Virus record (IMG/VR): IMGVR_UViG_3300011113_000145
Span: 1-21,111 of that record
Origin: a virus
DNA length: 21,111 bases
Reading direction: 5' to 3' (one strand)
The notes under the pieces were generated by a model. The model was given only the letters and a program-made list of their open reading frames with translations. It searched no databases and was not told where the DNA came from. A program made the position numbers and the translations under genes. Shown piece after piece: positions 244 to 17,268 of this stretch. Position 1 is the first letter of the stretch. Each line of letters opens with the position of its first letter.

Positions 244-258
244 GAAGTCCAATACTTC
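244..258. terminator. Small hairpin between convergent genes, possible bidirectional terminator
   Basis: GAAGT-ccaat-ACTTC forms a perfect 5-bp stem in the 17-bp gap between the rightward gene ending at 239 and the leftward gene ending at 257. The stem is short and has no T-tract on either strand, so intrinsic termination is only suggested by its position. Confidence 0.22.
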
Positions 259-718
259 ACCAAGACTCGCTCTCATCAAAACCAATAGCGTCTCCGCCAC
301 TCATAAGTGCGTCGACATATTCATCTTCACTTGCGAACTCAGGATACCATTCAAGTATCTGAGCACCGATAGATATATCTAGGTCTGCTACATCTACATC
401 TATACCAGCACTATGGTCTGCGTAGTTCTCAAACCCTAACTTCAATAGGGATAAGTCATACTGAAACACACCATCGGGGGTTACTGCTATAAATAGTGGG
501 GTAGATTCAGAGCTACTCGCACCAGTTAGAATGTTATCGTAGTCCTCTTTAGTTATAACAGGCTGACCTTCGGTGAAGGCTATTACATAGCCGTATAATT
601 TATCAGAGTTGCTACTGATAACTGAGTATCCATTTAGGTTAGTTATCTGTAAGTCATCGCAGAGATGTGCCTTGATTAAGTTAGCCACATCCTCTGTGTT
701 CAAGTTGTAAGTTATCAT
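257..718 (-). CDS. Hypothetical acidic protein, 153 aa
   Basis: I do not recognise a family. The 153-residue product is soluble-looking and strongly acidic, especially in its C-terminal third (repeated Asp/Glu around IDVDVADLDISIG and the end GFDESESW), with no membrane segment or cysteine motif. The ATG start at 718 directly follows the TAA of the upstream FmdB-like gene. The Shine-Dalgarno GGAGG lies inside that gene's last codons (GGAGGATAA-ATG), so the two are probably translationally coupled. It is the last gene of the leftward operon. Confidence 0.8.
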   Translation of the reverse strand: MITYNLNTEDVANLIKAHLCDDLQITNLNGYSVISSNSDKLYGYVIAFTEGQPVITKEDYDNILTGASSSESTPLFIAVTPDGVFQYDLSLLKLGFENYADHSAGIDVDVADLDISIGAQILEWYPEFASEDEYVDALMSGGDAIGFDESESW

Positions 719-901
719 TTATCCTCCAGTCTTGTAGAAGCCAGTACCCTTGAACTGAATACCGACTGCGTTGTATATTCTTGTTGAGCTAAAACCGCAG
801 GTGCAAGTGACTGGTTCGTCACGCTCATCTACGCTTCGGGAAAGTATAGTAAGTGACTCGCACTTACCACATCTATATTCATATGTCGGCATCTTGCTCA
901 T
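719..901 (-). CDS. FmdB-family zinc-ribbon protein
   Basis: This small protein of about 60 aa has the FmdB-family signature. MPTYEYRCGKC gives the first CxxC knuckle, CTCGF gives a second cysteine pair, and the end FKGTGFYKTGG matches the usual FmdB ending (F-K-G-x-G-F-Y). The family is a putative regulatory or metal-binding zinc ribbon of unclear function, common in bacteria and seen in phages. ATGs occur at 901 (MSKMPTYEYR) and 892 (MPTYEYR, the canonical family start). I prefer 901 because AGAAGGG lies 4 nt upstream of it; 892 is possible. The start overlaps the end of the upstream zinc-ribbon gene by 23 nt, indicating operon coupling. Confidence 0.85.
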   Translation of the reverse strand: MSKMPTYEYRCGKCESLTILSRSVDERDEPVTCTCGFSSTRIYNAVGIQFKGTGFYKTGG

Positions 902-1118
902 CAAACCCTTCTGGGGTAGGCGCAGTAGCTAGTGTGCCACATAGAGCGCACTCCATATCAAGGAAATACATATCAATCTTACCTGTTTCCTGCTCAAATA
1001 TTGTCTTGAGATTCCACATCTTCGAACCGCACGGACATATCGTGGTTGGTATCCCACGGATATCCATCGCTTCCTGATAAGTTATCTCCATCTCTGATAC
1101 TTCTATTGGTTCTTCCAT
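879..1118 (-). CDS. Small zinc-ribbon protein, 79 aa
   Basis: The 79-residue product carries a CxC pair at about residues 28-30 (ICPCGSK) and a CxxC pair at 57-60 (ECALCG), spaced as in a single zinc ribbon. No catalytic motif is visible. The start at 1118 is supported by GGAGG six bases upstream (GGAGGCGCA-ATG). It overlaps FmdB at its 3' end and the upstream frame at its 5' end. The family is not recognised; a nucleic-acid or protein-binding role is the usual expectation for a free zinc ribbon. Confidence 0.75.
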   Translation of the reverse strand: MEEPIEVSEMEITYQEAMDIRGIPTTICPCGSKMWNLKTIFEQETGKIDMYFLDMECALCGTLATAPTPEGFDEQDADI

Positions 1119-1305
1119 TGCGCCTCCAATCTTTAATTAAGTCAGGTGCGTTAGCACATTCGGTTGGTGATGTATGATATGCCCACTTAAATACTTTACT
1201 ATTTAACTTGTTAGGTATCATTATGCTCTCACCTACGATAGGTTTATCGCATGTTGAGCAGATTAAAATACCCCTTGATTGTAGTAATGTCAAAGATTTA
1301 CCCAT
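994..1305 (-). CDS. Putative zinc-finger-like protein with unusually long 3' overlap
   Basis: The 103-aa reading starts at ATG 1305, which overlaps the TGA of the upstream lysozyme gene (TGATG). AGAAAGG lies 9 nt upstream of it; an upstream in-frame start at 1338 would overlap lysozyme more. The first ~60 residues look like a real domain: CSTC at 16-19, then H44 and C50, a possible CxxC...H...C metal site, followed by a basic segment DWRRN. From about residue 62 the frame runs for 125 nt inside the next gene, passing through that gene's ribosome binding site, and the residues become low in character. The original stop may have been lost by an indel, so the true C-terminus is uncertain. No function is recognised. 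Confidence 0.55.
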   Translation of the reverse strand: MGKSLTLLQSRGILICSTCDKPIVGESIMIPNKLNSKVFKWAYHTSPTECANAPDLIKDWRRNGRTNRSIRDGDNLSGSDGYPWDTNHDMSVRFEDVESQDNI

Positions 1306-1706
1306 CAATGCCAACCTTTCTTTTTGAAGTGAGCCCAAGCTTGACAGGGAGTATCGTATCTATGATAGATATACTCAAGCCCCCTGTCAATCTGCTTGGT
1401 TGGGGGTGTTGCTGGGTCTAGCCCTAGTATCTGTGGGATACCGCCAGCATTCTTGCCCATAACTTTTATTTTATTGTATGCGCTGGGCTTCCATGCTGAT
1501 TCCTTACCCCACAATTTACTAAGGCAGGACATCTGTTTATCGCGCCACTCGGATAGCCTGTTGTAGGCGTAGCCTTTGCTATCCTCTACTGTCCAAGTAT
1601 CCTTCTTAGAATACTTGTGCGGTGTGGCTAGTGGCTCTACTATAACGATAGTAAAGATGATTGTAAATACTAATGCTCCTATGTAGTTAGTGATATGCCT
1701 TGCCAT
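1305..1706 (-). CDS. Membrane-anchored transglycosylase/lysozyme-like protein
   Basis: The 133-aa product has an N-terminal hydrophobic segment (about residues 8-24, ending VIVEPLATP), a signal anchor or signal peptide. A lysozyme-like domain follows: LWGKESAWKP places the predicted catalytic Glu at residue 69, then GGIPQILG, QIDRGLEYIYHRY and CQAWAHFKKKGWH. This motif series matches the small transglycosylase-like (SLT/aggregation-promoting-factor-like) domains of actinobacterial cell-wall proteins, so it should cleave host peptidoglycan glycan strands. It may be the endolysin, or an entry or superinfection protein. The start at 1706 has a strong SD (AAAAGGAG 7 nt upstream), although it overlaps the end of the whiB-like gene by 28 nt. 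No holin is recognisable beside it; the membrane segment could make it a self-exported (SAR-type) enzyme, which is inference. Confidence 0.8.
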   Translation of the reverse strand: MARHITNYIGALVFTIIFTIVIVEPLATPHKYSKKDTWTVEDSKGYAYNRLSEWRDKQMSCLSKLWGKESAWKPSAYNKIKVMGKNAGGIPQILGLDPATPPTKQIDRGLEYIYHRYDTPCQAWAHFKKKGWH

Positions 1707-2002
1707 ACTCTTACTCCTTTTGCGAAGGTGATAGCATCGCTTCGGATGGTTCGGTTAGTAGGTATGCCAGCCATGAGTATTCTCTCACCTGCTAGCATGC
1801 CTCCCCATATTCCGTGCTCTATGTTCTCAGGCTTCATGCCTTCGGCTAAACACTCTGCTTTGATGGGGCAATCTTGGCAGATACCAATAGCAAGCATAGC
1901 ACTATCGGCAAGTCTTTTACGCTTAGCCATAGTGGGTCTGCCCTTAGGTTGTTCAGGGAACCACATGTCTGGGTTCGGGTGGGTAGAGCATAAGCCCTTC
2001 AT
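1679..2002 (-). CDS. whiB-like: WhiB-family iron-sulfur transcriptional regulator
   Basis: The 107-aa protein has the complete Wbl signature: Cys5, Cys42, Cys45 and Cys51 (C...CxxCxxxxxC) to hold a [4Fe-4S] cluster, then HGIWGGM at 63-69, the family's sigma-interacting turn, and GERI with a short basic C-terminal part (TNRTIRS). Wbl proteins are essentially restricted to actinobacteria and their phages and act by binding the housekeeping sigma factor region 4. Phage copies such as that of mycobacteriophage TM4 can down-regulate host wbl genes. The start at 2002 is preceded by GAGGAG, which lies in the last codons of the upstream 46-aa gene. This is the best evidence for the host phylum. Confidence 0.92.
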   Translation of the reverse strand: MKGLCSTHPNPDMWFPEQPKGRPTMAKRKRLADSAMLAIGICQDCPIKAECLAEGMKPENIEHGIWGGMLAGERILMAGIPTNRTIRSDAITFAKGVRVWQGISLTT

Positions 2003-2003
2003 A

Positions 2004-2144
2004 TTACTCCTCTAATATCTTGTAGGTTAAATCATCAGACATGCCAGAGTCCATGAAGTCGGCAATCCAACTGTCTAATGACCCTATGAAGTCGTCATAG
2101 AAAATAGAGCTGGAGAACATAAACTCAATTACTATCTTCTTCAT
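2004..2144 (-). CDS. Small acidic hypothetical protein, 46 aa
   Basis: ATG 2144 to TAA 2004-2006 encodes 46 residues beginning MKKIVIEFMFSSSIFYDDF and ending LTYKILEE. The product is acidic, with amphipathic hydrophobic stretches and no known motif. The ribosome site AGGGGGT lies 7 nt upstream, within the last codons of the preceding gene. The gene ends 1 nt before the whiB start and carries that gene's SD (GAGGAG) in its last codons. The tight packing on both sides supports it as a real, coupled gene. Confidence 0.65.
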   Translation of the reverse strand: MKKIVIEFMFSSSIFYDDFIGSLDSWIADFMDSGMSDDLTYKILEE

Positions 2145-2148
2145 TTAT

Positions 2149-2373
2149 CTACCCCCTGTTGTGGGTTGTCTGATAGACAGGGTGTATCGTTACGATACCG
2201 CTCAGCAACTCAGCCCAATCTTGAGCCTTGTCTAAGGTGTCGAACATGCCATAGAATAGCGAGTTCGTAGCAGTGTCCTCTGGAAATACTAGGACTACAT
2301 AGCCAGCCACCAGCATACCTGCTAGTGGCGTGGCTACGGCAACTCTATCGTTAGAAGGAGTCGAAGATGACAT
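2149..2373 (-). CDS. Hypothetical protein, 74 aa
   Basis: The 74-residue product has one recognisable pattern: a beta strand YVVLVF, then LFYGMFDTLDKAQDWAELL, then IVTIHPVY. This resembles the small single-domain phage proteins in which a strand, a 'F-D-T-x-E-x-A' helix and a final strand form a compact fold; no biochemical role is known. The start at 2373 overlaps the upstream gene by 23 nt and has no strong SD. An internal ATG at 2316 (residue 20, MLVAGYVV) would remove a disordered N-terminus and is a plausible alternative start. Confidence 0.68.
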   Translation of the reverse strand: MSSSTPSNDRVAVATPLAGMLVAGYVVLVFPEDTATNSLFYGMFDTLDKAQDWAELLSGIVTIHPVYQTTHNRG

Positions 2374-2617
2374 CTACATACCCATCAAGGCGTTCGTGCT
2401 TGGCAATCAAGCCCTTCTTGCCTGTCAAGTGCTTGTAAGTGCCATCTCCCAATGACACCCATAATGACTTGGGCTTGAAGCGGGTCTGATTAGGTCTTGC
2501 TTTTACGATAGTTCCTAGTGGAAGGATACTATCACTTGTATCAACCGCTGTCTCAAGTAGAGAAGCGATATCACGCAATTCGTCAGCTAAGCCAACGATT
2601 AGTGTGTCGTTCGTCAT
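2351..2617 (-). CDS. Hypothetical protein, 88 aa
   Basis: The 88-aa protein has an acidic N-terminal helix (about residues 8-25, LADELRDIASLLETAVD) and a basic beta-rich remainder (VKARPNQTRFKPKSLWVSLGDG...HLTGKKG). No motif identifies a family. A weak SD (AGAAAG) lies 10 nt upstream of ATG 2617. It follows the amidotransferase gene by 25 nt on the same strand and overlaps the next gene. Confidence 0.72.
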   Translation of the reverse strand: MTNDTLIVGLADELRDIASLLETAVDTSDSILPLGTIVKARPNQTRFKPKSLWVSLGDGTYKHLTGKKGLIAKHERLDGYVDVIFDSF

Positions 2618-2642: not shown

Positions 2643-3554
2643 TTAGTAAGGTAGTGCTTGTTGTTCTTTATTATACACTCTCACCCATTGATTGTCAAAG
2701 TCAAACTCTCTTGACTTTGGCTTGGCGGAGTAGGGTGTGTAGCACATACAATCATTGTGATGTGCGCCACATGACACGCATGCCTCGCAGTATTGGCAAT
2801 AATCTGCGGACAGTTCTATGTCAATCAGGGCTTCACACATAGGACACTCATCTATGATGGCATAGCTATCTAACTGCGCTTGTAGTTCTGCGTAGTAGGC
2901 TTGCTCATCAGCAAAGTCTGCCTCTGCGAAAGCACCCGTATCAGCGATAGGTTTAGGTGCTGGGTTGTAATAAGAGTATTGCGTGGCTACTGCCCGTTTA
3001 TAACTCGAATTACTCCACCATACACCATTGTCGTCCCAAGTTCCAAGTCTTTCATTGATTAGATAGAGTTGGTATTGGGCTTGTGGATTGGTGGTGAGAA
3101 CGGCAATCTTGCTACCGCTTGCCCACCCCTCAATCATACGATAGATATTCTCGTCCTCTAAGGCGAGAACACCACCGAGTTTAGGTAGCGTATCCTCAGC
3201 AAAGACACGCGTATCGCTACGCTTATCGTCCTTGCTGATGAAGGTATCTAGCACACCATTGTGCGCTAGAAATGTATTGGTATCATCACCCACTTGATAT
3301 GGGTGGCAGTTGTCCTCGTTCTTTACACCATGCGTAGCGTATCTGGCATGCCATATAGCATAGCCACTAGGATACTGCTCGCGTAGTTCTAAGAACTTAG
3401 ACACCGACTTCTTGGCACTCATTGTGCGATAGCGGATAACCTTGCCATCAGCTACGATAGCAAAGCCAAAGCCATGTGGATTAGCGCATGTTCCCTCGGT
3501 AAGTTCCTCACGCTTTGGTATAGCGTTGGGCTTACATACTACTAATAGACACAT
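2643..3554 (-). CDS. Class II glutamine amidotransferase (Ntn hydrolase)
   Basis: The 303-aa protein starts MCLLVV, placing Cys2 as the N-terminal nucleophile after Met removal. Class II glutamine amidotransferase motifs follow: ANPHGFGFA (25-32), WHARYATHG (68-76, with the Arg that binds the glutamine carboxylate) and FLAHNGVL (95-102, the Asn-Gly oxyanion loop). The Ntn domain covers about residues 1-175. The C-terminal ~60 residues hold eight or more cysteines (CPMCE, CQYCEACVSCG, CMC), suggesting a zinc-binding tail. The expected activity is glutamine to glutamate plus ammonia. Its gene starts 10 nt after the amidoligase stop (TAGGGGGTGTTAT-ATG; the stop is part of the SD), so the pair is co-translated. 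It probably supplies ammonia to, or edits the product of, the amidoligase (inference). Confidence 0.88.
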   Translation of the reverse strand: MCLLVVCKPNAIPKREELTEGTCANPHGFGFAIVADGKVIRYRTMSAKKSVSKFLELREQYPSGYAIWHARYATHGVKNEDNCHPYQVGDDTNTFLAHNGVLDTFISKDDKRSDTRVFAEDTLPKLGGVLALEDENIYRMIEGWASGSKIAVLTTNPQAQYQLYLINERLGTWDDNGVWWSNSSYKRAVATQYSYYNPAPKPIADTGAFAEADFADEQAYYAELQAQLDSYAIIDECPMCEALIDIELSADYCQYCEACVSCGAHHNDCMCYTPYSAKPKSREFDFDNQWVRVYNKEQQALPY

Positions 3555-3564
3555 ATAACACCCC

Positions 3565-4788
3565 CTAGGCGTTGATTGTTAGCATTGGAGTTGATAAGGA
3601 TACACTAGGCACTTTGGACATGCGTAGGTATAGGTTAGGGTAAAGTCCATTGTTAGTGGCTACCCAATCGGCGAACCACTCCCACTTGAGCATGCCCAAC
3701 TTTACATCAGACACACTCATGTTGCGAGTATATTCTACCGAAGCGTGGCACAATTCTAGGGCGGTCATTATGCCCTCGCGCTTCATATTGCCACGAAAGA
3801 AGCGCAACTCTAGTGTGTAGTCATTGTTAGTATTGACCGCGCTATATCGCTCGGTCATACCACCACCATGAACTTTATCTCGCAAGTTGAATTGTGGGAT
3901 ACCCCACTCATCAGGCTTATAGACATCATCAAAGCGAGCAAAGCGCGAGTTCTTGCGCCCAGCTAACTTCATCATCTCCTTAGGATTGCGATAGATTAGA
4001 GATAAGAATCGGTGCGTGTGAGCGCCCGACTTGAAAGCACTACGCGACACATGGACATGAAGCCCACAACTTGTAGTGTCCCAACTTCTAGCGCCCTTAT
4101 TGCGACATGCCTCTATGTAATTCCATAGGTCGGTGGCTTGCTCATACGCGTGTAGAGTATGTGGGTGTGATACTAACTCATAACCCCAACCCTCAATAGA
4201 ACCATCTTGCTTGAGATAGCAGATATCTGCTTTCTCTAGTTCTAGCACATCAGATACGGCGGTTCTATAATCACTTCTATCTGGGTTATCACCGAAAGAC
4301 ATCTCAAGTTCAAAGCCCATGTAGAGATTATTATCGTTGCCACCATGGAATACAGGATTAGGCTTGTATGAATACTGATGGACTACGCCCTCATTGTTCT
4401 GATTACATGAGCATGTATCATGCTCAGGATAGTATTCATCACACTCATCACAATAGGTGGCGTTATCGCCTACGCAATCCTCGCACCAATACTCACTGCC
4501 TACTCTTGTGCCACCATCTCTATCGGAGTTGGCAGTATAGTCGCAACGATTACAAGTGAAAGAGTTATTCTCCCAACAGTATTCGCACCAATGCTGACTA
4601 CCTACACTATACCAATCATCATTGATGGTGTATATCTGCTCGCAGTATTCGCATACTTGGATACAATCCGAGCATACTACTGTGCTATCGTTGGTAGTGA
4701 AGGAATCCTCTGGATTCAACTCATTACCACACCCCTCACAACTGATAGGTGGATTATCATCTAGCGTTATCTCATTATTATCTGGCAT
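3565..4788 (-). CDS. Zinc-ribbon / glutamine-synthetase-fold amidoligase
   Basis: The 407-aa protein has two parts. Residues ~17-128 contain eight cysteine pairs (seven CxxC plus CSC), a tandem zinc-ribbon array. Residues ~155-360 match the GS-like amidoligase family (Amidoligase_2): MGFELEM (157-163), DGSIEGWGYELVSHP (195-209), CGLHVHVS (241-248), ERYSAVN (313-319) and TLELRFFRGN (325-334). The Glu/His/Arg residues correspond to the metal, ATP and carboxylate-binding residues of the GS fold. The family joins a carboxylate to an amine using ATP; the substrate is unknown, and the zinc array may recognise a protein or nucleic acid. The SD AAGGGGGTG precedes ATG 4788. It lies directly upstream of a class II glutamine amidotransferase, a neighbourhood described for phage amidoligases. 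Confidence 0.87.
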   Translation of the reverse strand: MPDNNEITLDDNPPISCEGCGNELNPEDSFTTNDSTVVCSDCIQVCEYCEQIYTINDDWYSVGSQHWCEYCWENNSFTCNRCDYTANSDRDGGTRVGSEYWCEDCVGDNATYCDECDEYYPEHDTCSCNQNNEGVVHQYSYKPNPVFHGGNDNNLYMGFELEMSFGDNPDRSDYRTAVSDVLELEKADICYLKQDGSIEGWGYELVSHPHTLHAYEQATDLWNYIEACRNKGARSWDTTSCGLHVHVSRSAFKSGAHTHRFLSLIYRNPKEMMKLAGRKNSRFARFDDVYKPDEWGIPQFNLRDKVHGGGMTERYSAVNTNNDYTLELRFFRGNMKREGIMTALELCHASVEYTRNMSVSDVKLGMLKWEWFADWVATNNGLYPNLYLRMSKVPSVSLSTPMLTINA

Positions 4789-10645: not shown

Positions 10646-11191
10646 ATGACAACGATTATTGGAGTCGAATACAAAGATAAGTCTGTCATTGTTGCTGACA
10701 GTCGCATTACAGATGATAGTGGTAAAGCTTACTCACATCCATTTATGCGTAAGATATCATCACGCGGCGCGTTACTAATAGCAGGAGCAGGAGAAGTATC
10801 TCCCTGCGACATTGCCCAGAACATTTGGATTCCACCAGTATTCTCAGCGAAAGATAAAAAAGATGTCTATCGCTACATGATAGTCAAGGCTATGCCTTCT
10901 CTTCGTAAGTGTCTTACAGACAATGGTTATAACTTTGATGAACCTCATGACAAGAATAAAGATGGATTAAGATTTCAATTTCTCATCGCAGTAGGTGGTG
11001 AGCTATTTGATGTTGACCAAGATTTGGCGGTAATGAAAAGTGAAGAAGGATTCTACGCAATCGGAAGCGGTGGTAGTTACGCTCTTGGAGCGCTTTACGC
11101 GGGCAGCGATGTCATCGGTGCAATGGAAGTGGCTGCACGAATTAGTGTATACACAGCACCACCATACCAAGTAGAAGAGCAACTCAAATGA
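10646..11191 (+). CDS. HslV/proteasome-beta-like Ntn peptidase
   Basis: The 181-aa protein has the proteasome beta/HslV pattern. MTTIIGVEYKD exposes Thr2 as N-terminal nucleophile. Numbered from that Thr, VADSR puts Asp at 17 and MRKIS puts Lys at 35, matching the Thr1/Asp17/Lys33 triad with a 2-residue insertion. LIAGAGE (44-50) and FYAIGSGGSYALGAL match the conserved glycine loop that carries the SGG motif. The SD AGGAGGGG lies 3-5 nt upstream of ATG 10646. Its slot between portal and capsid is where phages normally encode the prohead maturation protease, so that role is plausible but inferred. Alternatives are an infection-specific protease or a non-catalytic virion component. Confidence 0.85.
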   Translation: MTTIIGVEYKDKSVIVADSRITDDSGKAYSHPFMRKISSRGALLIAGAGEVSPCDIAQNIWIPPVFSAKDKKDVYRYMIVKAMPSLRKCLTDNGYNFDEPHDKNKDGLRFQFLIAVGGELFDVDQDLAVMKSEEGFYAIGSGGSYALGALYAGSDVIGAMEVAARISVYTAPPYQVEEQLK

Positions 11192-11427: not shown

Positions 11428-11872
11428 GAATCGTGGTGGCCCGCGCCCTACAGCGCCTCAGTATAATCCAGCCAATGTCAATGGCCTTGGTGGAAACGGA
11501 CAAAGCGGTATGAATACTGACTATTCAGGCTTTACCTATGGAATGAATAAAGCTGTTAATGAACAGCGTTCCGCTGCTCCTATCAAACCAACTGCTCCTA
11601 CAGGACAAATGGGTATCGCTAGAGAGCTTGTACAAGAGCCTTTAATTCCATTAGATGCACCAACACAGCGTCCTGATGAACCAATTACTTATGGTGTAGA
11701 TGCAGGCCCAGGTCCTGGTACTGAAGTATTAAACCTACCACAAGGCGTTGGTATGGGACAAGATGTAGATAGCGGTATTCAAGCTATTCGTGCCATGTAT
11801 ATCCGCGACCCACGTAACCAGGATTTGCGTCGCATCCTAGAATTGGTAGACCAGCAGATAGGTAACATGTGA
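11417..11872 (+). CDS. Pro/Gly-rich hypothetical virion-region protein, 151 aa
   Basis: I take ATG 11417 (MAVENRGGPRPTAPQYNP) as start because GAGGAGG lies about 6 nt upstream; an earlier in-frame ATG at 11396 would place that SD inside the gene. Most of the protein is Pro/Gly/Asn-rich and probably disordered. A short helical C-terminal segment (about 120-149, SGIQAIRAMYIRDPRNQDLRRILELVDQQIG) could be a docking helix. It overlaps its upstream neighbour by 11 nt and its downstream neighbour by 4 nt. No family is assigned; a head or internal-virion accessory role is inferred from position. Confidence 0.75.
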   Translation: MAVENRGGPRPTAPQYNPANVNGLGGNGQSGMNTDYSGFTYGMNKAVNEQRSAAPIKPTAPTGQMGIARELVQEPLIPLDAPTQRPDEPITYGVDAGPGPGTEVLNLPQGVGMGQDVDSGIQAIRAMYIRDPRNQDLRRILELVDQQIGNM

Positions 11873-14800
11873 GTCAGCCAGCAGTAAAAAAGAATCCAGA
11901 TGGTACCTGGACAATCACTGGCGTACAAGAGAACAGGCTTACGCAGAATCAGGCTGACTATCAACAGTTAGTTAAAGCTTCAGAGCTACTTACTGGTGAG
12001 GAAGGCGAGAAAGCTCGCCGTTTAATTACGCAAACTCCTACCCTTTCTGGTGGATTACTTGCTAGCTTGGCTTCATATGGCGCAGTTCCTAACAATAATC
12101 TCGTTAAGACACTTGCTGACATTGATGCACAGACTCGCGCCCAGCGAGAATTAGATGCTTTTGCTGAAGCACAACGTATTTCTAATGAAAAGTTTAACAG
12201 TAAGTTCCGTGGTAAACTATGGTCAACCCTAAAAGGTCTTGTTCGTGGCGTTTCTATTATAAGCGAAACCCCAGGAGAAGCAATACAGGCCTCTGCTCGT
12301 ACCTTAAAAGAAGATATTGATGCAGCAGTACGCGGAGATATTAATTTCTGGACTCGGCAACCTACTGACCCAACTAAAACTCGTGAAGATTTAGGACTAT
12401 CTAGCGGGCCTGGTTCTATATTAAACCAGTTAAAGCTTACTCAGGTTGCTAAACAGCTTGTTGCTGAGAAAAAAATAGATTTAGGTGCAGGATTTTTCCC
12501 ATCTGAAGAGTCAGGTGCAGGCTTTGCAGCGCGTAAAGCACAGATGGATGTAGCTGCAGTCAATGTTAAGGTGGGCAACAGGACTTATCAGCGTCCATTC
12601 TACCTAGCTGACCCAGTAGTTAATGCTATTACCTTTGGTAATGCTGATACTAGCTACGGTAACGTAATGGTTGCTCTAGGAAACCTAGCTTTTGCTATCA
12701 AGACTGACACTTTTATTGTATATAATAGAATAAAGAATGCATCAAGAGAAGCAGAGCGTGTAGCTAGAACATCAACTGGTGTAAAAGCTGCTAAAGCTTA
12801 CCAGCAAAAAGCCATTCTTGACGCAGAAATTGAAGAGCTTACAGCTAGAATGAATCAGGCGTCTAGAGAATTAGATAATTTAGTAGGGCCTGAAAGAGCT
12901 GCTAAGCAAGATGAGTTTGTTACTGCTCTGAATGAAAGAGTTCAAAAGTCGGACGAGTATGATAACATTGTCTATGACCCTGAAGCAGTAGCTGGATTCT
13001 TAAGTAGCTCTGCGGCAGCCCCTGCTATTGATGCTCTTTCTGAGATTACAGACTGGAAAGAAATCTGGCGTTTAGGTAAGTCAGCAGGTGGACGTGGTGG
13101 CTTTAATGTTGAGCAAGCAAAGGCTATTGCTGCTGCATCTAACCGTGAAGAAGTATTAAGCGCCTTAGCTCCTTTTATTGCCAAGGGAACAGTAGCTGCT
13201 GGTGTACTTGATAGAGGTACTGCAACAGGAAAAGCTGTTGGAGAGATGCTTAGTTCCAGAATTGTTCCTGGTCAGGTAGCTCAGATTGTTGATTCAATCA
13301 AAGGCCTTGGAGCTCGCGGCTTTCGCAAGATGCCATTCTATAATAAAGTTGTAGATGCTTACAATAAAGGTTTAACAGTTGTACCTAGAGGTAAGGCTAT
13401 TCATGCCTCTGATAAAGATGGATTGATTGACGCAATTTACTCTTATGGTCGTATTACAAATGTATCTGCTGCTAAGTTAGATGAGCTAGCTGACATTGTA
13501 GCCCTAACAGATGATGCTTCTGAGGCAGGTTATACTGCTTCTGCTAGACTCTTTGATGAGATATTAGCTGCTAATATAGATAAGAAGTATATCAATCCAG
13601 AGCTACTCAAAGAAGTAACCCGTATATTTAGAAGCGGTAAAGACCAGATGTCAACCTATTGGTCAGCCCGCCACGCAGCTGGAGCTAAAATAGATTACGT
13701 ACTTTCTGGAAATAAGAAAGTAACTATTACTGGTCCGCACCTAGACTCTGAATATCTTAATTCAGTAGTATATTTGCCTGATGCTCGTGAGTTATTAGAT
13801 GTAATTTCTTCTGTAAATAAGCTTGGAAAAGTCACAGAAAATACCAAAGAGTTAACAGACTTTTTAACTAATACTGTTTGGAAGCGTATCGTACTTGTCC
13901 GCCCAGCATATATTATGCGTAACATTGCCGAGGAACAGATTCGTGTTTTAGGTACAGGGCATATATCATTCTTTAACAACCCACTTATGGCTATGGGTAT
14001 GTGGTTAGGTAGAGACGGTGGCTCCTCTTGGCGTGCTGTATTAAATAAGTTTGACCCATTTAAGAATACAGTAACAGATGAAAGTTTTAAACTAGGTTCC
14101 GCTAAGGATGAATTCGTGGCAGAAGTTGCTGCTCACGACGCAACTGAATCATATATTAAGTTTATGACTTCTGGAGTAAGCGGCATAGATAATGACGCCC
14201 GTAGCGTTATGTCATTTGCTGGATTCCAGCCTAGAGCATTTGGACATCCCCGTTGGTGGGAAGGTCTTGCTAATGAAATTCGCATTCTTAGCAACTCTAT
14301 TGCAGGTAGAGCGGTAGCTCGTACTGGTCCTACTTTAGATAATCAGATGGCTACAGTAGATTACTTACTTGCTGGTGCTGGTAAAGATGAGTGGACTCAG
14401 TTTGCTAAACTTCAGAAGCCTGAGATTCGTGACTGGTTACTTAGCCCAGAAGGTGCTACGACCTATTTGTTTACTGGTGTAGACGAAAGTGGTAAAGCAG
14501 TATCCCTTCTTGCACGTATCGAAGAAGCTGCAGGTATGGGTGGCGAAGCTTCTCAAGCAATTAAGAATCTAATTGCCTTTGGTAGAATCGATAAACCAGG
14601 ATTTAAGATTGAAGTACCTAAAGGTAGGCAGTCAGCAGAGAATTCAATTCGTAATGCTGCTGCAATGTCATCTGGTAAGAAAGCCCTCAAGGATATTAAC
14701 GAAGAGTTTGCAGATATATTAAAGCAATCTTTTGATGGCAAAGGCAATTGGGACGGATTGCTTATGAATGTCCCTGAAGCTAAGTTTCAAACCACAGGTA

Positions 14801-17268
14801 AAATTGGCGAGATATTTACTCGTGTATCTGAGGGATTCTTTAACTTTGCTGTTAAACTTGAGAAGACATCAACGATGGGCCCAGAGTGGCGTCAGTCATA
14901 TTGGGATGCTATCTATGATATCTCTGGTGCGCTAGATGCTGAAGCTGTTGCAAAGCTAGGTAGTGTTGCTAAGAAGTCTTTGACTCCATTAACAACCTTT
15001 AAAGGACAGCCAATAGGCAAAGAGCATGCAGTATGGAAAGCATTTAAGACTGCAGAAGAATCTGCCGCAAAAGTGTCAAGAGAGGAACTAGCTGAAGCTC
15101 AATCATATATCAATAGATTCCCTAATTTGCAGGAATATAAAGACGGTGGCAGTGGTGGAATTGTTGGAACTAGAAGCGTCGTTGGTTTCGTAAAAACTTC
15201 TGCCTTAAAAGACATGTCTGGAAATATTGCTGGGAACAAAGAAGCAATAGAGTTCTACCGCAAATCCTTGCGCGAAGGTAAAGGCTTTAGTAAACAATTT
15301 CGTGATGAAACATACAATGAACCAATTATGGTTGTCTATGACAATGAAACAGGGTTAGCATATATTGGAGAAGGTAATCACAGGCTTCAGGCAGCTCTTG
15401 CCGAAGGTATAGGTTATGTACCAGTAAGAGTGGTTAAAGGTAACAAAAAAGAAATGGTTACCGATTTAGAAGCTGGAAGATTTCCAAAGCAAATTAAGAA
15501 TAATAAGAAACCACAATTCCCAGAAACTTATGGGCCGAACGCTGGTAAAGTACGTGATGAAAATTATGTTCCACCAGAGATGCACCCGAGCTATGTGTTC
15601 GATAAAGAATATACTTTAACTGAAAGCGTTGAAGCTGCTAAAAAGTTTGGCAATATCACTGCAGCTGAAGCCCATGAGTATGCTTCCTTTGTAGCTAGCA
15701 AGCGTGTTGCAGATTTATTCTATGATGCTTCTCGTAAGCGTTTAATATTCCATCAGCTACGTTTGATTGCACCATTCGGTGCAGCTTGGGAAGATACTAT
15801 TCGTAAGTGGGGCCAGATTGCTCTGGATAACCCAATGGAAGTATACAAGATTCAGAAGAGTCTACAATGGCTCACAAAGCCAGAGTCATCAGCACTGTAT
15901 TCTTTAACAGATGCTAAGGATTATTATGACCCTAACCAAGGTTTCTTCTTTAATGACCCATTAGATGGGCAACGCAAGTTCTTTATTCCGTTCCTAGGCA
16001 CTGGTCTTAACTTCCTATCAAACCTAAGGACTGGCCAAGGGTTGAGCAAGCAAGGCCCTTATGCTATTGCTGCTACACCACAATCATTGAACTTCGCATT
16101 TGCATCAGGTAGCATCATGCCAGGTTTTGGCCCAGGACTACAGATGTCGGTAATAGCATTAGATGAATTGGGTGTTAACCCAATCAACATTGCGCCGATT
16201 GGTATGCGAGACGGTATAAATAAGATAATTTTTCCATTTGGTGAGCCTGACTTAAAACAAGGCGTACTTGAAGGATTCCTTCCTGGTAATTGGCGTAGAC
16301 TATTAGCCTTTTTCCCTGGACAAGAAGAATCATATGCAGCTGCTTTTGCTCCTGTTATGAACTATCTAGCTAGCGGTGGAAACTATGACTTAAATGACAT
16401 AGAAGACCAAGCTCAGTTAATGAGAGATACTGATAAGTTTGCTAAATGGTTTACAGTATTCCGCGGTTTATTTGGATTAGTTTCTCCTTTCCCGCTACAA
16501 CCACAAGGATTAAGCACTCTTGATGATGGAAATGTTGTACTATCTACCGCTTTGTATAATGACTTCAAGCAGTTAGAAGTAGCAGCTGGTGGTAATTACA
16601 ACAAGGCTTATGCTGACTTCTTAGACTTATACGGACCAGAAGCTATATTTGCTATCATCAATACATCTTCAGGCGCCCCTACTAACTTGATGACATACGA
16701 GTTAATTCAGCGAGAGCCAGAAGTTGTGGACTTATATCCTGAGACTTATGGATATGCATACCCTGCTGGTGGATTTTCTACAGAGTTATATCGCTGGCAA
16801 CGCCGCGCTGGTAATAAAGAAAAGTTTGATTCTAAACAATTAGTGCAAAGAGCTACAAGTTTACGCTTCTATGCAGCTGATGATAGGCTAATGGCTCGTC
16901 TAATATCTGGCGACTTTAGTGAGGAAGAGTACGAAGAAGCCCGTAAGAACCTTCGTGATACCTTTATTAAAGCAGGTCTCAGTATAGAGACTGACCCATA
17001 TAAGAAGGCTCGTGTTAAAGATGAGCTTCGTAGAATGGCAACAGATATACGCTTTGAAGATTCAGACGCTGTAGCAGGACTTCGTGACTATCTATATCTA
17101 AGGGATAAAGCCTTAGAAGCAGCTAACATAGATAACGATAGTCTAGCTAAGAAGGGTGCACTACCTCAGCGTGAATGGTTAGCAGGACAAGTTAAACAGA
17201 TTCTACAAAGAAATCCAGAGTTCTATAAATTTTATTACAGGTTCTTTAAAGAGGAGTTAGAAGGATAA
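11869..17268 (+). CDS. Giant (1799 aa) putative internal virion protein with ParB/Srx-like insert
   Basis: Translation starts at GTG 11869, overlapping the previous stop (GTGA), with a weak SD (AGG) about 7 nt upstream. The 1799-aa protein is mostly helical. It has an early alanine-rich coiled-coil region (about 300-350) and a conserved-looking core (RPAYIMRNIAEEQIRVLGTG). The C-terminal half holds hydrophobic/Gly/Pro stretches (FIPFLGTGLNFL, GSIMPGFGPGLQ) that could be membrane-active. Around 1110-1200 lies a ParB/sulfiredoxin-like segment: YIGEGNHRLQAALAEGIGYVPVRVV (G1167-L1177 and onward), with the GxGNHRLxAA motif. Flanking residues (~1030 and ~1260) read like one helical domain split by this insert. 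Size and place between portal and capsid suggest an ejected inner-core protein or a polyvalent-type protein; this is inference. Confidence 0.8.
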   Translation: MSQPAVKKNPDGTWTITGVQENRLTQNQADYQQLVKASELLTGEEGEKARRLITQTPTLSGGLLASLASYGAVPNNNLVKTLADIDAQTRAQRELDAFAEAQRISNEKFNSKFRGKLWSTLKGLVRGVSIISETPGEAIQASARTLKEDIDAAVRGDINFWTRQPTDPTKTREDLGLSSGPGSILNQLKLTQVAKQLVAEKKIDLGAGFFPSEESGAGFAARKAQMDVAAVNVKVGNRTYQRPFYLADPVVNAITFGNADTSYGNVMVALGNLAFAIKTDTFIVYNRIKNASREAERVARTSTGVKAAKAYQQKAILDAEIEELTARMNQASRELDNLVGPERAAKQDEFVTALNERVQKSDEYDNIVYDPEAVAGFLSSSAAAPAIDALSEITDWKEIWRLGKSAGGRGGFNVEQAKAIAAASNREEVLSALAPFIAKGTVAAGVLDRGTATGKAVGEMLSSRIVPGQVAQIVDSIKGLGARGFRKMPFYNKVVDAYNKGLTVVPRGKAIHASDKDGLIDAIYSYGRITNVSAAKLDELADIVALTDDASEAGYTASARLFDEILAANIDKKYINPELLKEVTRIFRSGKDQMSTYWSARHAAGAKIDYVLSGNKKVTITGPHLDSEYLNSVVYLPDARELLDVISSVNKLGKVTENTKELTDFLTNTVWKRIVLVRPAYIMRNIAEEQIRVLGTGHISFFNNPLMAMGMWLGRDGGSSWRAVLNKFDPFKNTVTDESFKLGSAKDEFVAEVAAHDATESYIKFMTSGVSGIDNDARSVMSFAGFQPRAFGHPRWWEGLANEIRILSNSIAGRAVARTGPTLDNQMATVDYLLAGAGKDEWTQFAKLQKPEIRDWLLSPEGATTYLFTGVDESGKAVSLLARIEEAAGMGGEASQAIKNLIAFGRIDKPGFKIEVPKGRQSAENSIRNAAAMSSGKKALKDINEEFADILKQSFDGKGNWDGLLMNVPEAKFQTTGKIGEIFTRVSEGFFNFAVKLEKTSTMGPEWRQSYWDAIYDISGALDAEAVAKLGSVAKKSLTPLTTFKGQPIGKEHAVWKAFKTAEESAAKVSREELAEAQSYINRFPNLQEYKDGGSGGIVGTRSVVGFVKTSALKDMSGNIAGNKEAIEFYRKSLREGKGFSKQFRDETYNEPIMVVYDNETGLAYIGEGNHRLQAALAEGIGYVPVRVVKGNKKEMVTDLEAGRFPKQIKNNKKPQFPETYGPNAGKVRDENYVPPEMHPSYVFDKEYTLTESVEAAKKFGNITAAEAHEYASFVASKRVADLFYDASRKRLIFHQLRLIAPFGAAWEDTIRKWGQIALDNPMEVYKIQKSLQWLTKPESSALYSLTDAKDYYDPNQGFFFNDPLDGQRKFFIPFLGTGLNFLSNLRTGQGLSKQGPYAIAATPQSLNFAFASGSIMPGFGPGLQMSVIALDELGVNPINIAPIGMRDGINKIIFPFGEPDLKQGVLEGFLPGNWRRLLAFFPGQEESYAAAFAPVMNYLASGGNYDLNDIEDQAQLMRDTDKFAKWFTVFRGLFGLVSPFPLQPQGLSTLDDGNVVLSTALYNDFKQLEVAAGGNYNKAYADFLDLYGPEAIFAIINTSSGAPTNLMTYELIQREPEVVDLYPETYGYAYPAGGFSTELYRWQRRAGNKEKFDSKQLVQRATSLRFYAADDRLMARLISGDFSEEEYEEARKNLRDTFIKAGLSIETDPYKKARVKDELRRMATDIRFEDSDAVAGLRDYLYLRDKALEAANIDNDSLAKKGALPQREWLAGQVKQILQRNPEFYKFYYRFFKEELEG

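Follow-up and report, generated by a model that had tools for sequence, protein, structure and literature searches.

Which reaction would be catalyzed by an amidoligase of the glutamine synthetase (GS) fold and a class II glutamine amidotransferase (GAT) that stand side by side in a phage, and on what target? The pair was found in a 21,111-base IMG/VR virus record, the whole of which is called the window here, with terminase, portal, and head genes at its right and a leftward operon at its left. This operon also holds a WhiB-like gene (1679-2002, minus strand), and the window terminase shares 45% identity with Streptomyces phage terminases, which together suggest that the host of the virus, as predicted from its phage genes, is probably actinobacterial. 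The underlying classification of amidoligases was reportedly founded by Iyer et al. in 2009.

The pairing itself had been noticed earlier in comparative studies, as the initial annotation of this DNA stated. In published reports, the pair of OM43 phages was named and two guesses were offered for it, cell-wall change and secondary metabolites (PMC10580990), while amidoligase, GAT, ATP-grasp, and AIG2 genes were listed for UFV-P2 (PMC3890496). Other reports list prophage amidoligases with γ-glutamyl cyclotransferase (GGCT) (PMC11318856), describe for Arthrobacter phages of cluster AL an amidoligase that adjoins an AIG2-like gene (PMC5513430), and propose an aid to nitrogen use in Phage-ZRK32 (PMC10945688). 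A literature search, judged by titles and the first part of abstracts, found no experimental test of both enzymes of such a phage pair, in agreement with the annotation that no substrate is known for it. Amidoligase/GAT pairing is thus already in print, and the window pair adds cysteine arrays that are more elaborate than those of the named pairs with which it was compared.

The ORF at 3565-4788 on the minus strand encodes a 407-aa protein with a cysteine array at residues 17-128, a conserved linker from H137 to F147, and a catalytic domain at about residues 151-395. It matched Amidoligase_2 (PF12224) with an E-value of 6.4e-8 and 33.2 bits against the Pfam cut-off of 22, and the GS-type motifs ExE, DxS...GxE, HxH, and TxExR are all present. 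In a 13-row alignment spanning 20-76% identity to the window protein, 19 columns are invariant, including E160, E162, D195, E204, H244, H246, R278, E327, and R329, and the invariant columns lie in the expected family motifs except for the neighbors of R278. When the set was extended to 178 amidoligases (93 from viruses, 80 from bacteria, and 5 from reference phages), no aligned row deviated at E160, E162, D195, H244, H246, R278, T325, or E327, and E204, N319, and R329 had one exception each. The mismatch of catalytic residues that the initial annotation had considered was therefore not encountered, these residues being conserved in practically all 178 homologs. We take them to be equivalents of the metal and substrate ligands of GS, the enzyme in which these motif roles are known.

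Structure prediction pointed in the same direction. The AlphaFold2 model, built from 31 sequences with a mean pLDDT of 77 and a pTM of 0.65, matched the glutamine-synthetase superfamily over residues 151-396 with Foldseek E-values down to 8e-6. Its best fold match was YbdK (Z 12.0, 222 residues, 4.1 Å), and further matches were mammalian GS (Z up to 11.9), plant glutamate-cysteine ligase (GCL, 11.4), GmaS (10.8), and Dop (10.8); GatB was absent among the rows shown of the fold-match lists. Whole-length TM-scores were low (about 0.3), in part because the cysteine array has no counterpart in the matched structures. By sequence, the amidoligase domain found no close solved structure; the only matches, to LIM domains and a single zinc domain of ClpX, fell on the array and did not go beyond E 0.04. 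A profile comparison with YbdK alone was weak (probability 6.7), yet it aligned the HVHV motif. With PF12224 above cut-off, an intact catalytic set, and GS-superfamily fold matches, the assignment first made for this ORF stands: its product is an Amidoligase_2 protein whose modeled domain has a GS fold, predicted to act as an ATP-dependent amide ligase.

The amidoligase is directly followed by the GAT gene, as annotated, 10 bases downstream on the same strand. The interval 3565-4788 first given for the pair fits the amidoligase, and the GAT sits at 2643-3554 (minus strand). The 303-aa class II (Ntn-type) protein carries the Cys2 nucleophile, the motifs HxRxxTHG, N-x-HP, HNG, and SDT, and a cysteine-rich tail at residues 237-271, and it matches PF13522 and PF13230, both above cut-off. 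Among 171 GATs, every aligned row agrees at Cys2, H69, R71, T74, H84, P85, H98, N99, and G100, and Cys2 immediately follows the initiator Met in 92/92 viral, 75/75 bacterial, and 4/4 reference rows. These residues are presumably equivalents of the GlmS substrate ligands. The GAT model (pLDDT 69, with residues 183-209 and 263-303 below 50) matched the GlmS glutaminase domain with E 5e-8, followed by EgtC structures as the second distinct match (E 3e-6). The best NCBIfam models were glmS/purF; identity with GlmS was rejected, since the score was 33.6 bits against an equivalog threshold of 418, the match was limited to residues 30-111, and the isomerase half was not found. The product is a class II glutamine amidotransferase and a predicted glutaminase. 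Both genes of the pair are under purifying selection: in pairwise comparison of the window with 11 relatives, dN/dS was 0.16-0.25 in the amidoligase gene and 0.09-0.32 in that of the GAT.

At the junction of the two genes (3555-3567, minus strand), the amidoligase stop codon TAG is overlapped by the Shine-Dalgarno-like AGGGGGTG of the GAT, that is, the stop codon lies within the stretch CCTAGGGGGTGTTATATG. This overlap suggests that the two genes are translationally coupled.

The N-terminal array of the amidoligase (codons 4405-4740, minus strand) contains CxxC pairs at residues 17, 39, 46, 68, 79, 102, and 113 and a CxC at 126/128, so that the eight cysteine pairs first reported are seven CxxC plus one CxC, a number that is right if the latter is counted. 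Spacing groups them into four putative four-cysteine modules, 17/20-39/42, 46/49-68/71, 79/82-102/105, and 113/116-126/128, of which the second and third are detectably repeats of one another (P 1e-8). None of the cysteines in pairs 1-7 varies among the viral homologs (91-92 of 91-92 aligned rows), and the last two cysteines are kept in 90/92 and 87/91. Bacterial loci usually lack the first module, where just 9/80 rows aligned, but retain the remaining three in 78-80 rows. This conservation was read from the alignment, as a regular-expression count of CxxC failed for 29 of the 123 viral loci. The cysteine-rich C-terminus attributed to the GAT was likewise confirmed: the tail (codons 2742-2846, minus strand) holds cysteines 237, 240, 253, 256, 259, 262, 269, and 271, and all eight are invariant in the 89/89 viral GATs that reach it. 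Because their cysteines are invariant or nearly so among the viral homologs, the arrays are not due to chance. The amidoligase array would form four zinc modules, judging from its cysteine spacing; in comparisons with LIM domains, the best PDB sequence matched with E 0.037 and LMO2 with E 8e-3 in Foldseek, the latter ranked after the GS matches.

Zinc ribbons on both partners had been taken as a sign of a shared target or mutual docking, which was not borne out. The two arrays have no detectable homology, and a zinc module shared by both partners was rejected, as the hhalign value of 13.05 was no higher than column shuffling can produce (30 controls, mean 9.8, maximum 14.4). They also come and go separately across lineages, with no co-variation. 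Amidoligases of bacterial loci mostly have at least 6 CxxC, while 68 of 80 GAT entries of these loci lack a tail CxxC; in Marvin, the GAT tail is present despite a reduced amidoligase array.

Genome comparison showed how constantly the two genes travel together, in contrast to the lack of co-occurrence that the initial annotation had entertained. Viral relatives were collected in two scans, the first giving 43 loci and the second the best 80 of 580 matches, and the resulting 123 loci comprise 93 distinct amidoligases. Of these 93 nearer relatives, 92 have a GAT behind the amidoligase, and the one miss is cut by the contig end. By profile, the GAT was detected in 41/43 loci of the first scan and in 78/80 of the second (best 80 of 580), the misses again being the contigs of L019, which ends one base past the amidoligase, and L026, where tblastn found the first 45 GAT residues. 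For bacteria, the best 80 of 109 matches were used, so that the counts again cover nearer relatives: the GAT was present in 75/80 loci by profile and in L176 by eye, about 76/80 in total. Two of the other contigs end too soon to show a GAT (L133 and L206), and two have room for it, yet the GAT is absent (L137 and L146). With crude ORF limits, 70 of the 75 bacterial pairs lie on the same strand and at most 400 bases apart.

The survey from the GAT side gave 43 phage records. Nineteen mycobacteriophages were shared with the amidoligase search (one inspected), 13 more records were inspected, and 6 Bifidobacterium, 2 Rhizobium, 1 ChaoS9 duplicate, and 2 Acinetobacter glmS records were set aside. 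By profile or annotation, the GAT has an amidoligase in its vicinity in the 19 records of the Marvin group, MEP401/402, ctgrD200, MT835576, PV036454, StenR_269, RHph_N3_13, C75C1, and BA720P3, and the pair also occurs in a gut phage. A divergent amidoligase upstream of the GAT is plausible in ctfjg026 (hhalign probability 80). In the haloarchaeal ChaoS9, short motifs of a divergent upstream partner are visible, but the hhalign probability was 1.8 and no partner is claimed; SA 1306 Kay was rejected as a paired GAT since its protein is a complete GlmS. Bifidobacterium phage BP742P1 has an intact GAT (L221:3447-4498) beside an amidoligase remnant with a 48-residue match to the BA720P3 protein, and Clostridioides phage AR1086-1 has an amidoligase without an adjacent GAT. 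No true amidoligase-GAT fusion was seen among the loci examined; a candidate at L134:4797-7043 was rejected as a frameshift between overlapping genes by comparison with L132 and L133. In C75C1 and ctfjg026 (L213:4001-4894 and L212:4001-5215), the GAT is fused to a C-terminal γ-glutamylamine cyclotransferase (GGACT) domain, and these proteins are annotated only as γ-glutamyl cyclotransferase. The ctfjg026 fusion protein has an additional CxxC ribbon-like end.

The pair is optional cargo in its phage group, because the close relative ct2KA10 (L211) is without it. In this phage, the terminase and portal are 78% and 82% identical to those of the window, and the WhiB, transglycosylase-like, and FmdB-like genes recur; neither amidoligase nor GAT gave a match, and their place is taken by other leftward ORFs, one of them nuclease-like by eye. 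Downstream of the pair, the window operon (257-2617, minus strand) encodes many small cysteine proteins, including WhiB, an FmdB-like protein (719-904), and the products of 879-1118 and 994-1338, all on the minus strand; several are conserved in most relatives. Outside the operon, an HslV/proteasome-subunit-like gene lies right after the portal gene (10646-11191, plus strand; phrog_1040 E 1e-25, PF00227 above cut-off), and a link between it and the pair was dropped, as the gene also occurs in ct2KA10. A 1799-aa protein (11869-17268, plus strand) had no match at E 1e-5 among 50,697 phage records, and its middle third contains a borderline ParB-like patch (E 0.00099). A PADLOC search for defense systems gave zero matches, and the counter-defense role and the cell-wall and nucleotide targets offered by the initial annotation are conjectural.

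An 88-aa ORF directly after the GAT (2351-2617, minus strand) was considered as a third core gene. It is present in 85 of 93 relatives of the phage group and absent from distant pairs, with no match in the bacterial-genome, Marvin, MEP402, ctgrD200, Clostridioides, faecal, L042, and L044 loci; it is probably a companion and not a core part. What lies downstream of the bacterial pairs differs between loci: among the 75 with a profile GAT, the most frequent ORF cluster is recombinase-like (16/75) and another is DUF3846-like (6/75), both names being tentative. A scan of nine window ORFs, namely the two of the pair, 2351-2617, and six between 257 and 2002, found no ATP-grasp or GGCT gene. Over 79 of the 93 loci, the pairwise distances of amidoligase and GAT correlated with r = 0.86, against 0.69-0.75 with the WhiB or transglycosylase-like gene, and the partial r was 0.67. 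Between the 88-aa neighbor and the amidoligase, the partial r was still 0.52, and linkage therefore explains part of the co-inheritance. For the 39 loci compared with the terminase, the values were 0.87 for the pair, 0.82 for amidoligase-terminase, and 0.70 for GAT-terminase.

Known pairs place the window among more and less elaborate forms. GatB-GatA and MurT-GatD also combine an ATP-activated carboxylate with a separate glutaminase subunit in a comparable working, and their ligase or glutaminase folds differ. In Marvin (Marvinvirus), gp105 and gp106 (33% and 29% identity) are likewise an amidoligase and, after it, a class II GAT that ends in the same cysteine tail, whereas the amidoligase array is reduced, a C-terminal part is added, and the gap is 79 bases. 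Marvin gp105 and its relatives (L045:3920-5281) are labelled 'glutamine amidotransferase domain protein', though gp105 is the amidoligase and gp106 the GAT. The OM43 (Methylophilales) phages MEP401 (gp05-06) and MEP402 (gp06-07) share the adjacent genes, which overlap in their case; unlike in the window, the MEP402 amidoligase is nearly without a cysteine array and its GAT lacks the tail. The LUZ24-like cluster (UFV-P2 ORF21-29) and StenR_269/RHph_N3_13 also unite Amidoligase_2 and class II GAT in one cluster but add a COOH-NH2 ligase or GS-like gene, an ATP-grasp enzyme, and/or AIG2/GGCT, so that the window represents the minimal two-gene form. The pairs of Firmicutes/Coriobacteriia genomes (e.g., L139 and L132) have the same order and an N-terminal CxxC-array amidoligase, yet they are usually without the first cysteine module and the GAT tail, and most of their GATs start with MC(C/S)LFG instead of MCLLVV.

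With a probability that we place only slightly short of even, the two proteins constitute a two-subunit glutamine-dependent amide synthetase, an accessory cassette of the phage in which the GAT supplies ammonia to the amidoligase. The GAT, through its N-terminal Cys2, would hydrolyze glutamine and free ammonia; the amidoligase would phosphorylate a carboxylate of the target with ATP and join the ammonia to the activated carboxylate to form an amide, while the cysteine array would most likely recognize the target. Glutamine-fed amidation is the best reading because a complete glutaminase and a complete GS-type ligase occur in fixed order, apparently coupled and co-inherited, and the target is probably a host molecule because no third gene accompanies the pair across lineages. 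Ammonia transfer is opposed by the lack of a true fusion, the bacterial loci L137/L146 without GAT, AR1086-1 without an adjacent GAT, and BP742P1 with a GAT and an amidoligase remnant, as well as by other phages that pair an amidoligase with γ-glutamyl cyclotransferase and show no ammonia donor (PMC5513430, PMC11318856).

The same partners could also write and erase a γ-glutamyl mark, which we regard as possible if rather doubtful: the amidoligase would link the side chain of glutamate to an amine of the target or a metabolite, and the 'GAT' would be a γ-glutamyl hydrolase removing or trimming it. YbdK/EgtA/PuuA-type enzymes perform γ-glutamyl ligation, EgtC removes γ-glutamyl, and EgtA/EgtC, PuuA/PuuD, and BtrJ/BtrG are precedents. 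The nearest folds of the modeled amidoligase include the γ-glutamyl ligases YbdK, GCL, and GmaS beside GS itself, EgtC comes second among the distinct structures matched by the GAT model (E 3e-6), C75C1 and ctfjg026 have GAT-GGACT fusions, and amidoligases elsewhere adjoin GGCT genes; a γ-glutamyl amide bond is the common denominator of these partners. The GlmS glutaminase nevertheless beats EgtC as a match (5e-8 vs. 3e-6), no EgtC family model was listed for the GAT at E up to 0.01, the window's GAT lacks a GGACT domain, and an eraser requires neither tight co-inheritance nor coupling with its writer. A role in the nitrogen metabolism of the infected cell as auxiliary metabolic genes appears quite improbable, since hosts already possess GS and GOGAT and a large conserved cysteine array is unexpected for a plain metabolic enzyme. 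Its source is the proposal for Phage-ZRK32, which came from growth with added phage (PMC10945688) and is not a test of these genes. Superinfection exclusion, with the cell wall or surface of the host being amidated, is an idea published for phiEco32 and taken up again for OM43 phages and C. clostridioforme prophages; it would suit the optional status of the pair and the transglycosylase-like gene in the same operon (1305-1706). That gene remains in ct2KA10, where the pair is absent, and is thus not specifically linked to it, and neither protein shows a signal peptide or membrane segment by eye; we hold this reading to be very improbable.

Beyond glutamine-fed amidation as such, it is conceivable, though unlikely, that the pair is an array-guided tagging enzyme, whose zinc modules would pick a host protein or RNA to which an amide or γ-glutamyl group would be added, reprogramming the host. 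If so, it would represent a phage modification so far undescribed, distributed across phages of Actinobacteria and Proteobacteria and gut Firmicutes genomes. Since the pair is so widespread among phages and bacteria and its active sites are fully conserved, its product must be a defined amide. Which amide this is has become a testable question through the minimal form of two apparently coupled genes, the natural plus/minus comparison offered by ct2KA10, and the GAT-GGACT fusions that hint at the chemistry.
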